57,170 nucleotides of DNA from Candidatus Saccharimonadota bacterium (lineage in GTDB: Bacteria; Patescibacteriota; Saccharimonadia; Saccharimonadales; Saccharimonadaceae), in contig JAUMWY010000003.1 of assembly GCA_030529385.1 (NCBI GenBank), forward strand, positions 1 through 57,170, in the 5' to 3' direction. A model generated the notes under the pieces. It saw only the letters and a program-made list of their open reading frames with translations. It did no database searches and was not told where the DNA came from. Below, piece by piece: positions 2,344 through 5,873 of the stretch. A program made the position numbers and the translations under genes. Positions within the stretch are counted from its first letter, which is position 1, and the number at the start of each line of letters is the position of its first letter.

Positions 2344-2907
2344 ATGAAGCTGATTATCGCTCAGGGCAATCCCGGCACTGAATATGCCAACACTCGCCAC
2401 AATATCGCCTGGCAAGTGGCTGACACACTGGCGAGGCAGGCAGGGGCGTCATTTCAGGCCAAGCCGAAGTTTCTGGCGGAAATTGCTGAATATACGGCGG
2501 GCAGCGAAAAAATTATCATCGCCAAGCCGCAGACATTTTATAATGAGACCGGACGCACCGCCCGCATGATCACTGATTTTTACAAAATTACCAGTCGCGA
2601 CATTTTAGCGCTACACGACGAACTAGCACTACCGCTCGGCACGCTGCGCATGCGCCAGGGCGGATCAGACGCCGGCAACAACGGCATTAAGTCGCTCAAT
2701 GCACACCTAGCGAATAATTTTTGGCGCTTGCGGCTCGGCATTAGTAATGATCAGCGAGCCCACATCGCCGACGCCGACTTCGTCCTGAGCCGTTTTACGC
2801 CTGACGAACAGGCACACATCACCGCCGCCATCCTGCCCGAATCCCTGCGCCTGATTGACAATTTTCTCACCGGAGACATTAATGCTGAAACTATCCGCGC
2901 TGCGTAA
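2344..2907 (+). CDS. pth: Peptidyl-tRNA hydrolase
   Basis: This cytosolic enzyme cleaves peptidyl-tRNA released from stalled ribosomes. The 187-residue length is normal. Visible motifs are GNPG (Asn near residue 9), the catalytic His of NTRHN, an HDEL motif holding the catalytic Asp, and the Asn of FYNETG. One departure is in SDAGNNGIKS: the family usually has His-Asn (His113/Asn114 in E. coli), and here it is Asn-Asn. ATG 2344 is preferred because TATACT ends 7 nt upstream and the upstream extension is antisense to the COG0523 gene. Its 3' end overlaps the permease gene by 26 nt. Confidence 0.93.
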   Translation: MKLIIAQGNPGTEYANTRHNIAWQVADTLARQAGASFQAKPKFLAEIAEYTAGSEKIIIAKPQTFYNETGRTARMITDFYKITSRDILALHDELALPLGTLRMRQGGSDAGNNGIKSLNAHLANNFWRLRLGISNDQRAHIADADFVLSRFTPDEQAHITAAILPESLRLIDNFLTGDINAETIRAA

Positions 2908-3889
2908 TTACTGGCCGCTGCTCGTATTTGGCGCGTTGGTCAGCGTAGTGCTCATATTTTCGCGCCAACTCCACTACTGGCTCATCGCCCATCCACCACA
3001 CTCCTGGATGCCGTTCGTCACCGCCGCCCAAGATTTCCTCACGCTAACGCTCAGCGTGATAATTGAAGCCTCGCCGTTTCTGGTCCTCGGTGTCATCATC
3101 GCCACACTCATCCGCCGTTTCGTCTCACCGCGCGCTCTACTGCGCCGTTTGCCGCGTCATACTCTGTTGCGCCGCCTCATCTTGTCAATCATCGGCATGC
3201 TCCTGCCGGTCTGCGAATGCGGCAATGTGCCAGTAGCCCGCAGCCTGCTTCGCAACGGCCTCAGCCCCGCCGACGCCGTTACCTTTCTCCTCGCCGCACC
3301 AATTCTTAACCCCATCACCATCGCCGCCACCGCCACCGCCTTCGCCGCCACGCCGCACATGGTTTGGTGGCGTATTGGCGCAGCACTGATTATCGTGCAG
3401 GTCGTCGCTCTCGTCGTCAGCCGCCTCAATCAAAAAACCATCCTACAACCCGACTTCATCGCACACTGCCAAAACAGGGAAGACGCCTCGCTGAACACCC
3501 TCGCCACGTTCGCACACAGTGAACTATGGCAGCTATTTCGCATGCTGGTCATCGGCGCCATGATCGCCGCCGCCACCCAAGTCTTCATTCCGCGCGACAT
3601 CCTGACCACCGTTGGCAGCGACGTAATATTGTCCGTATTAGCCATGATTACTCTCGGTTTTGTGGTGTCAATCTGCTCCAGCGTTGACGCCTTCTTCGCG
3701 CTGGCCTATGTCGGCAGTTTTGCACCTGGGGCAATTCTCGCCTTTTTGGTGGCGGGTCCGATGATTGATATTAAAATGATCGCGCTCCTCAAAAGCACCT
3801 TTACGGCGCGTTTTGTTAGTATCGTGACGGCAATAACGTTTGGTTTGACGTTGCTGATTGGCGTGGGGGTGAATTGGCATGTGGGCTAA
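2882..3889 (+). CDS. COG0701 permease (DUF318/ArsP-like, YcgR-like)
   Basis: The 335-residue protein is very hydrophobic, with about eight membrane spans. It has the two hallmark motifs of the COG0701 family: PVCECGNVPVAR (about residues 104-115) and ICSSVDAFFA (about 263-272), each with conserved Cys. Substrates of most members are unknown; ArsP relatives export organoarsenicals. The next gene is the TIGR03943 partner that commonly accompanies this permease (YcgR with YcgQ in Bacillus), so the two probably form one complex. It starts inside pth and overlaps the next gene by 11 nt, so the three are likely translationally coupled. Confidence 0.82.
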   Translation: MLKLSALRNYWPLLVFGALVSVVLIFSRQLHYWLIAHPPHSWMPFVTAAQDFLTLTLSVIIEASPFLVLGVIIATLIRRFVSPRALLRRLPRHTLLRRLILSIIGMLLPVCECGNVPVARSLLRNGLSPADAVTFLLAAPILNPITIAATATAFAATPHMVWWRIGAALIIVQVVALVVSRLNQKTILQPDFIAHCQNREDASLNTLATFAHSELWQLFRMLVIGAMIAAATQVFIPRDILTTVGSDVILSVLAMITLGFVVSICSSVDAFFALAYVGSFAPGAILAFLVAGPMIDIKMIALLKSTFTARFVSIVTAITFGLTLLIGVGVNWHVG

Positions 3890-4616
3890 ACTCGGCACCT
3901 CACTCAGTTTTGTATTGTTGAGCGGATACATCATATCACTGTGGCTCGGCGGCAATCTCAGCGCCTACATCCACCCGCGCTATCATCTGTTTACTGTCAT
4001 CATGATCGCACTATGCGGCATGGCAGCGCTCATTGACATCATCCACACGCTCTACCGTCATCACCGCGCTCTCCGCACCGAACGACCAACCCAACCCGAC
4101 ATCGTGAGCAGTATCGTTATCATCGTGCTATTGCTCGGCATCATCCTGCCACCTCAATCACTGTCACTCCACGCCGCCACCACGCGCGCTCGAGACACTA
4201 ACGACAGCCTGCCATTTGCGCCAACACAGACCGCCGCCTGCCATCCGCCAGAAACCGGCCAACAGGGCAACACGCTCCTCTATCGCTGGCTCTCGGCCGT
4301 TCATGCCTGCGCTACGCCCGACGATTTTGTCGGCGAGGCAATAACCATGGTTGGCTTCATCACCGAGCAACCTGATGATCTGCGTAGTTTTTATCTGACG
4401 CGCTTTTTGGTCAGCTGCTGCGCCGTTGATTCCACACCGCTGCGCGTCCGCGTCATTGCACCGACTTGGCGGACCGATCACACCCCGGGCCAGTGGCTGC
4501 GCGTTGAAGGGAAGGTCGCCAAGGATCGCACCGGCGCGCTTGTCATTACCGACGCCACGCTCACGCCAATCAATCAACCAGCCTCACCTTACGAATTTCT
4601 CGGCTCACTGGAATAA
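3879..4616 (+). CDS. TIGR03943/DUF1980 membrane protein (YcgQ-like permease partner)
   Basis: The 245-residue protein has three hydrophobic segments (about 8-27, 38-57, 77-93) and then an extracytoplasmic domain with the motif FLVSCCAVDSTPLRVRV (about residues 178-194). The Cys-Cys pair and following Asp are typical of TIGR03943 proteins, which are nearly always encoded beside a COG0701 permease, as here. A metal-related role is plausible from the COG0523 neighbour but is not shown by the sequence. It ends just before a strong terminator. Confidence 0.78.
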   Translation: MWAKLGTSLSFVLLSGYIISLWLGGNLSAYIHPRYHLFTVIMIALCGMAALIDIIHTLYRHHRALRTERPTQPDIVSSIVIIVLLLGIILPPQSLSLHAATTRARDTNDSLPFAPTQTAACHPPETGQQGNTLLYRWLSAVHACATPDDFVGEAITMVGFITEQPDDLRSFYLTRFLVSCCAVDSTPLRVRVIAPTWRTDHTPGQWLRVEGKVAKDRTGALVITDATLTPINQPASPYEFLGSLE

Positions 4617-4626
4617 TATCGCCAAC

Positions 4627-4948
4627 TAAAAAAGCGCCAGGTAAGGGTGGGCATCACCTGGCGCTTTGTTACCCTTCAACCCACCCGAGCTCACATTTCG
4701 CTGTTTGAAGCGTCTACGGTCAAAACTCCAAAAGACCGGCGCCTGACCAATGGTCAATATCCTTGGATACTCTTTCAGCGAAAAATGGTTCGCCTTTGAA
4801 AAAGGGCAGTTAAAGGGGTTAGTATGCGTGCAACGTTGAATCGCAAAAAGTGGAGGGTAAGAATACTTAATGCCATTGCGCGCAACCTAACATATAGTTA
4901 GAATAGGGGGTATAAGGTACGTTGGATTGAGTCCTGCTCAACCAATCA
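4627..4948 (-). ncRNA. Candidate structured ncRNA of about 320 nt, family unassigned
   Basis: A consensus promoter on the minus strand (TTGACA 4983-4978, 17-nt spacer, TATAAT 4960-4955) points into a 330-bp interval with no convincing gene, and a strong terminator closes it at 4667-4631. In the minus-strand RNA I see a 5' hairpin (TTGAG/CTCAA stem near 4940-4923), a CTAAC/GTTAG hairpin near 4898-4884, a TGACC/GGTCA hairpin near 4756-4744, and the terminator loop complementary to an upstream GGGTGGG. I do not recognise the core motifs of RNase P RNA, tmRNA or SRP RNA. A 33-codon ORF inside (ATG near 4874) lacks a ribosome binding site and is probably chance. Confidence 0.55.
4631..4667. terminator. 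Strong bidirectional terminator
   Basis: A 12-bp perfect stem (AAAGCGCCAGGT at 4631-4642 with ACCTGGCGCTTT at 4656-4667) encloses a 13-nt loop. It ends the permease operon on the plus strand and the candidate ncRNA on the minus strand. The loop contains GGGTGGG (4645-4651), exactly repeated in inverted sense at 4680-4686, so a pseudoknot is possible in the minus-strand transcript. Confidence 0.85.
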
Positions 4949-4954
4949 AGTGCC

Positions 4955-4996
4955 ATTATAGCAAACATTTGACAAAGTGTCAATACTTTTTGCAAT
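4955..4996. promoter_or_regulatory. Overlapping divergent promoters sharing a palindromic -35 region
   Basis: The sequence TTGACA-AAG-TGTCAA (4969-4983) is an inverted repeat that gives a consensus -35 on both strands. Minus: TTGACA, 17 nt, TATAAT (4960-4955) for the ncRNA. Plus: TTGACA, 16 nt, TGCAAT (4991-4996) ending 7 nt before dprA ATG 5004. One polymerase would occlude the other, so strong ncRNA transcription should dampen dprA. Confidence 0.65.
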
Positions 4997-5003
4997 AAAA
5001 GCC

Positions 5004-5873
5004 ATGGAAATCAATAGAATTCGTCCAGATGAGCACACTTTTACCCAGAGGTTAGCAGGTATTGCGGACGCTCCAAAAAGCTTGTGTTATATGGGCGTAT
5101 TGCCAGCAGAGAGGACACCCGTTGTCGCCATTGTCGGCACCAGAAAACCAACCAGCTATGGCAGAGAAGTCACCCAGCGACTGGCCTACGACTTGGCAAA
5201 ACAAGGTGTTATTATTGTCAGCGGCCTCGCGCTCGGTGTTGACGGCATCGCCCACCGCGCAGCACTGGAAGCTGGCGGGCGAACCGTCGGCGTAGTAATT
5301 GACGAATTGCCGCAAATCTCACCGCGCAGTCATATACGGCTGGCGCACACCATGATTAAGCAGGGCGGAGCAATTCTGTCGGAATGGGGCAGGGGCGACG
5401 GCGCACCAATGGCTAAATGGGCGTTTTTGCGGCGTAATCGGCTAGTGTCAGGGCTAGCTGACGCGGTGATTATTACTGAGGCGGCTGCACGAAGCGGCAC
5501 GCTCAACACGGCCGCCCATGCGCTCAATCAAGGCCGCGAGGTGCTTGTCGTGCCGGGCAATATCACCAGCCCGCTGTCGGAGGGGTGCAATGCCCTACTG
5601 AAACAAGGAGCCTCGCCAATCACCTACGCCAACGACGTGCTTGACATAATCGCGCCTCAACTGCGCCAACAATCAGCCCAGCAGACGCTGCCTATCGGCA
5701 CCACGCCGGCCGAAACTGACATTATCCGCTTACTTGCTGCCGGTGTGCGCAGCGGTGATGAGCTACAAAAACGAGCCAAATTAGCAGCCGCCGACTTCGC
5801 CACAGCGCTAACGATGCTGGAAATAAATGGCATGATTCAGTCACTTGGCGCAAATCAGTGGCGGCTAAAGTAA
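5004..5873 (+). CDS. dprA: DNA-processing protein DprA
   Basis: DprA/Smf binds incoming single-stranded DNA during transformation and loads RecA. The 289-residue protein has the Rossmann-like DprA core with GTRKPTSYG (45-53), SGLALGVDGIAH (73-84), FLRRNRLVSGLAD (141-153) and ITEAAARSGTL (157-167), then a C-terminal winged helix (about 230-289). ATG 5004 is preferred over the GTG at 4977, which lies inside the promoter; with a -10 ending 7 nt upstream the mRNA would be leaderless. Its presence suggests natural competence, as expected for CPR bacteria that salvage nucleic acids. Confidence 0.92.
   Translation: MEINRIRPDEHTFTQRLAGIADAPKSLCYMGVLPAERTPVVAIVGTRKPTSYGREVTQRLAYDLAKQGVIIVSGLALGVDGIAHRAALEAGGRTVGVVIDELPQISPRSHIRLAHTMIKQGGAILSEWGRGDGAPMAKWAFLRRNRLVSGLADAVIITEAAARSGTLNTAAHALNQGREVLVVPGNITSPLSEGCNALLKQGASPITYANDVLDIIAPQLRQQSAQQTLPIGTTPAETDIIRLLAAGVRSGDELQKRAKLAAADFATALTMLEINGMIQSLGANQWRLK

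Follow-up and report, generated by a model that had tools for sequence, protein, structure and literature searches.

The cyanobacterial RNA Yfr1, about 60 nt long, carries a short, ultraconserved, C-rich unpaired element that is thought to bind translation starts. OLE RNA, thought to work within an RNP, and other large structured bacterial RNAs are large, complex and conserved, and their biochemical role is unresolved. 6S RNA is a widespread regulatory RNA. Finally, the alpha-r14 (NfeR1) sRNAs of alpha-rhizobia form three hairpins, each with CCUCCUCCC, and were reported to act on the translation start of the ntrBC mRNA and so silence it (PMC10746234). For the Candidate Phyla Radiation, little on non-coding RNAs was found in the open-access literature that we searched.

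Here we analyzed a stretch of 57,170 nt (the window) from a 657-kb draft genome of Candidatus Saccharimonadota bacterium, whose order we take to be Saccharimonadales. Among named public genomes, relatives of its dprA occur mainly in Saccharibacteria MAGs. The window encodes a candidate RNA that resembles the alpha-r14 sRNAs in presenting an unpaired, invariant anti-Shine-Dalgarno (anti-SD) motif containing CCUCC on stems of variable sequence. In contrast to alpha-r14, this RNA has one ACCCUCC loop, a large multi-helix scaffold and a likely pseudoknot, and no homology links the two: the unpaired CCUCC-type loop is there and the three CCUCCUCCC hairpins are not. By analogy, it may work like anti-SD-loop riboregulators such as NfeR1 without being a member of them. 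A C-rich unpaired element is also common to this RNA and Yfr1, but the Saccharibacteria RNA has no Rfam match. It is large, complex and conserved like OLE-type RNAs, from which it differs in lineage, size, architecture and, again, the lack of an Rfam match. It is widespread like 6S RNA, but it lacks a long bulged helix mimicking a promoter, and the 6S model does not score it.

The candidate RNA is encoded on the minus strand and runs from about 4948 to about 4628 (~320 nt), between the divergent dprA and an oppositely oriented DUF1980 gene. Its ends were inferred from the positions of the promoter (start at about 4948) and of the terminator (last U at about 4628). The features of the locus are as follows.

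5004 to 5873, plus strand: dprA, the divergent neighbor, outside the RNA (Pfam PF02481, DNA_processg_A, E 2.5e-65)
4955 to 4983, minus strand: promoter, with TTGACA at 4978-4983, a 17-nt spacer with TG at 4962-4963, and TATAAT at 4955-4960
4628 to 4948, minus strand: structured ncRNA, from the sequence and from covariance model matches (5' domain 4807-4952, 3' domain 4623-4691)
4921 to 4946, minus strand: P1, the 5' hairpin (7 pairs, all with double-sided changes, 97% paired across 90 loci)
4897 to 4920, minus strand: J1, highly conserved single strand GUACCUUAUACCCCCUAUUCUAAC (near-invariant alignment columns)
4887 to 4901, minus strand: P2, a CUAAC/GUUAG hairpin (GUUAG at 4887-4891; alternative partner CUAAY at 4818-4822)
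4825 to 4884, minus strand: P3, the stem bearing P4 (4874-4884 with 4825-4835; 11 pairs, all with double-sided changes, 97.8% paired)
4843 to 4873, minus strand: P4 hairpin (10 pairs, all with double-sided changes, 86% paired)
4852 to 4858, minus strand: ACCCUCC, the anti-SD-like 3' part of the apical loop of P4 (whole loop 4852-4864), from counts of the conserved loop
4809 to 4817, minus strand: P5 5' strand CCCUUUAAC (9 of 9 pairs formed with its 3' partner at every one of 88 loci)
4687 to 4808, minus strand: variable domain inside P5 (present here in its long form; other genera have a short GGACCUC...GAGGUGGGUC form)
4680 to 4686, minus strand: GGGUGGG, proposed pseudoknot strand (no covariation, pairing inferred)
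4672 to 4680, minus strand: P5 3' strand GUUGAAGGG, pairing with the P5 5' strand
4633 to 4665, minus strand: 3' terminator hairpin, its loop with invariant GCCCACCC (CCCACCC at 4645-4651)
4628 to 4633, minus strand: U-tract of the intrinsic terminator, six U after the hairpin, from the sequence

The original prediction had described a perfect TTGACA-17-TATAAT promoter and a strong terminator framing about 320 nt without a credible gene, and all three are present. The promoter, whose strand had been left unstated, lies on the minus strand and reaches a sigma-70 consensus score of 12/12 with an extended -10 (TGn); about one weaker site is expected per shuffle. The terminator hairpin (4665-4633) is followed by the U-tract, and a loop of more than 8 nt is the sole reason why the automatic terminator scan overlooked it. 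The open reading frames of the interval reach at most 50 aa, none of them credible. A coding role is further disfavored by changes that preserve pairing and by variation in length, an argument made from sequence comparison in the absence of a codon-level test. The next gene downstream is DUF1980 (3879-4616), on the strand opposite to the RNA. It overlaps a gene for an ArsP_1-type permease (PF03773), and this pair (2855-4616) faces the RNA from downstream; in most relatives the pair was not seen beside the RNA.

The 322-nt interval folds more stably than 100 dinucleotide shuffles (z -4.6), and its helices are supported by covariation among relatives. Across the 90 loci of the alignment fitted with model R1, the four 5' helices present canonical pairs in 95.1% of the pair cells, compared to 68% when shuffled and 28-44% when slid. 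Double-sided changes were found at 31 of the 33 pairs and in 720 cells, against 193 in shuffled and at most 105 in slid controls. Because this alignment was fitted to the structure, the percentage of canonical pairs is inflated; structure fitting cannot, however, explain 5' helices of 7 to 11 pairs with compensatory changes at every one. For P5, compensatory changes across 88 loci include C-G to G-C as well as A-U to G-C or C-G, with a mild bias from picking the 3' strand as the best match. The terminator stem covaries as well (303 double-sided cells compared to 70 when shuffled) around an invariant loop.

A pseudoknot between GGGTGGG and CCCACCC had also been proposed. Both strands exist (4686-4680 and 4651-4645) and are retained in relatives, the former as GGUGGG in 85 of 88 loci and as GGGUGG in two more, but the pairing itself is plausible rather than proven because both strands are invariant. 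The variable domain occurs in two forms, and where GGGUGGG is degraded a second GGUGGG is found inside GAGGUGGGUC. One locus alone (L136:1845-1914) has GAGGUCGAG replacing GGGUGGG, with its terminator loop unchanged. In other families of the order (L122-L156, f27 among them), P3 has a nearly invariant 5' strand, GUUUUAGAGC with GCUCUAAAAC, the same sequence with which type II CRISPR repeats begin. This likeness is probably a coincidence, as the P3 strand covaries in other families.

The locus was found by DNA search in 36 of 61 relatives. Three covariance models extended this distribution: R1, covering the 5' domain (P1-P4) and built from nine sequences; R2, covering the 3' domain (P5 strand, GGGUGGG and terminator hairpin); and R3, a broader 5' model. 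Their E-values are rough and most of the sequences are metagenome assemblies. R1 matched 122 of the 245 genomes of the class, each once. R2 matched 205, of which 204 belong to the window's own order, including most genomes of genera g2 and g12, whose 5' domain is too diverged for R1. Coverage of the order is about 204 of 217, based on 13 listed misses; this denominator places the 20 unlisted, match-free genomes in other orders, an assumption that follows from the sorting of the list by kinship. R1 and R2 were located independently of each other; at nearly all 5'-positive loci R2 trails R1, on the same strand and no more than a few hundred bases away. Across the phylum, R3 matched 25 of 381 genomes under strict filters, all of the same order. 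The promoter is conserved too, with TTGAC in 89 of 90 loci, the 17-nt spacer in 79 and the extended -10 in 84. Nearly all matched genomes carry a single copy. This is by computation an essentially order-wide, single-copy, independently transcribed structured ncRNA of Saccharibacteria, its expression being untested. That it exists as a structured ncRNA is, in our view, practically certain.

The motif ACCCUCC ends the P4 apical loop, immediately 5' of the 3' strand of the stem. ACCCUCC or ACCUCC (the latter in g2, g3 and g12) is found in nearly all aligned sequences, while the sequence of the stem changes freely. The 16S rRNA ends in GGAUUACCUCCUUU in two members of the family, and the loop resembles its GGAUUACCUCC: it is the complement of the Shine-Dalgarno (SD) sequence, a copy of the anti-SD with one extra C. 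In g2 and g12 the loop is an exact AUUACCUCC match to the 16S 3' end. Three loci of these genera (L023, L158 and L159) have a diverged 5' domain, without the J1 ACCCCC and P2; there UACCUCC replaces UACCCUCC in the P4 loop and constitutes the exact anti-SD sequence. Weak R2 matches (E 2e-5 to 8e-3) were also found beside dprA in other orders (L227, L231 and L232). These reduced relatives retain little more than a long hairpin whose apical loop reads UCACCCUCC or GCACCCUCC, a CCCUU(U) element (CCCUUUAA) that can pair downstream, and a terminator; for two of the hairpins the folding z-scores are -7.6 and -8.3. Position, orientation and shared motifs are the evidence that these relatives are homologous. 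J1 and the GCCCACCC loop are gone from them and the anti-SD-like loop remains. On these alignments alone, the P4 apical loop is the deepest conserved feature of the RNA, and because it survives in the reduced relatives we took it as the active part.

The invariant GUUAG possesses two possible partners, the upstream CUAAC (P2) and a downstream CUAAY (an extension of P3). Each of the two can form in full at 86 or more of the 90 loci, and the C/U variation of the downstream strand preserves pairing. In g2 and g12, P2 is lost and the downstream pairing is, by eye, kept through changes (GUUGC/AUUGC with GCAAU). The CCCUUU strand of the reduced relatives likewise has two partners. We infer that this exchange of partners may be a switch.

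We did not identify any conserved strong mRNA target in 491 ortholog pairs of two genomes, of which only about one third have SD-like starts. Starts with GGAGGG are rare (17 and 12 genes in the two genomes) and thyA is the only shared one. Its two orthologs (G001 a1000 and G101 b1119) have a GGAGGG SD complementary to the P4 loop; an overlap of about 0.1 is expected by chance, which makes the match too weak to claim thyA as a target. The lack of a conserved strong target implies that action is generic, on SD sequences or factors binding the 16S tail, or that the loop binds something else. A pairing of J1 CGCACCUU with helix 45 of the 16S rRNA was also considered: it is perfect in G001, where the 16S rRNA reads AAGGUGCG, but in G101 the rRNA reads AAGCUGCG and J1 is unchanged, which leaves the pairing unsupported. 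Conserved loops yielded only short G-rich matches to other parts of the rRNA, and the RNA had no similarity above chance to the rest of the genome of one relative.

The position of the RNA could suggest a cis-element or antisense regulator of a dprA-topA operon, since 75 of 92 loci have DprA as the divergent upstream neighbor and the -35 box is only ~21 nt from the dprA start. Transcription, however, points away from dprA, and the RNA does not fit a cis-regulatory leader, as it has its own terminator (4665-4628) and the next downstream gene is on the opposite strand. At about 12 other loci (L018, L120, L123, L126, L128, L129, L133, L138, L140, L142, L150 and L155), topA is the divergent neighbor with no dprA match in between, which suggests that these genomes lost dprA and retained the RNA and topA; three more (L011, L091 and L092) have neither gene in the flank examined. 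Since the RNA persists where dprA was lost, it is a gene of its own rather than a cis-element of dprA, and a role tied to this operon appears very improbable. Alternatively, its size and apparent ubiquity could be those of a divergent housekeeping RNA (RNase P, tmRNA, SRP or 6S), an identity to which we give almost no credence. Neither the RNase P (RF00010) nor the tmRNA (RF00023) model matched the locus, and both RNAs sit elsewhere in the source genome (G000:C21:5874-6215, 254 bits, and G000:C7:1645-2032, 67 bits). SRP RNA had been considered because Rfam finds none in these genomes, and was dropped because Ffh is missing too: among relatives, RF00169 matched 0 of 31 genomes and RF01854 0 of 21, the Ffh M domain (PF02978) was found in 0 of 13 genomes compared to 14 of 14 positive controls, and one single-contig relative has no ORF bearing DTAGR, the Ffh/FtsY motif. 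The search for SRP RNA was not fully sensitive, as the RF01854 control failed on B. subtilis. The SRP pathway has apparently been lost in the relatives of the source genome (G000-G048). The 6S model (RF00013) did not match the locus even at E 10 and was above the cut-off in 0 of 21 relatives. More broadly, the window and ten loci of relatives presented no Rfam 15 family at gathering score, and a permissive scan of 4227 families returned a single, meaningless match to a yeast snoRNA (E 0.07). These results, together with strong conservation and covarying helices, support the original prediction of an unassigned structured RNA without recognizable core motifs of RNase P, tmRNA or SRP RNA. Neither outcome that would have overturned that prediction, a significant match to a known housekeeping RNA or a lack of conservation in close relatives, was obtained. 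The family is new, being absent from Rfam and undescribed in the open-access literature searched (subscription papers and preprints were outside the search), and the mode of action proposed below has analogues.

We tentatively favor, without holding it to be established, a trans-acting RNA that displays an anti-SD-like loop and acts on translation, possibly switched by GUUAG; both its expression and its pairing with mRNAs are inferred. The long P3-P4 arm, P5 and the terminator-loop pseudoknot would most likely act as a rigid scaffold presenting the active part, the P4 apical loop ACCCUCC, which copies the 3' end of the 16S rRNA. In trans, the RNA would pair with SD-led mRNA starts or compete for factors binding the 16S tail, and the choice of GUUAG between its upstream (P2) and downstream (P3 extension) partners may toggle how the loop is displayed. 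No conserved mRNA target emerged to support this model, a protein site or a tertiary contact would account for the ACCCUCC loop equally well, and the model does not explain J1, whose conservation within the order equals that of the P4 loop. A housekeeping RNP scaffold or a ribozyme-like RNA with a dedicated protein, its C-rich loops making protein or tertiary contacts without SD pairing, much as OLE RNA is believed to work in an RNP, remains a real possibility, if a somewhat doubtful one: it would fit the size of the RNA, its order-wide single-copy presence, its several invariant strands (J1, P4 loop and terminator loop) and the likely pseudoknot, but not the reduced relatives, which lose J1 and the GCCCACCC loop and keep the anti-SD-like loop. 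The complementarity of the C-rich loops to SD sequences and the one shared candidate, thyA, would also suit a conventional regulatory sRNA silencing one or few specific mRNAs. This is quite improbable given that no extended conserved complementarity was found across the 491 orthologs and that single-target sRNAs rarely maintain a large covarying scaffold across an order. The anti-SD model has a stronger version, in which a ribosome-mimicking RNA uses its copy of the 16S tail and the GUUAG strand exchange to globally gate SD-dependent translation or to sequester the factors that bind the 16S tail; we consider this bolder version unlikely, though worth stating.

The covariance models built here provide annotators with a marker for an unannotated gene. 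Since almost an entire order of parasitic, minimal epibionts retains it as one copy per genome, the RNA probably matters to them. Should the anti-SD-like loop prove to be the active part, the RNA would influence translation lineage-wide through ribosome mimicry. If the global gating of translation were true, these bacteria, whose genomes are very small, would have a global regulator of translation specific to their lineage.
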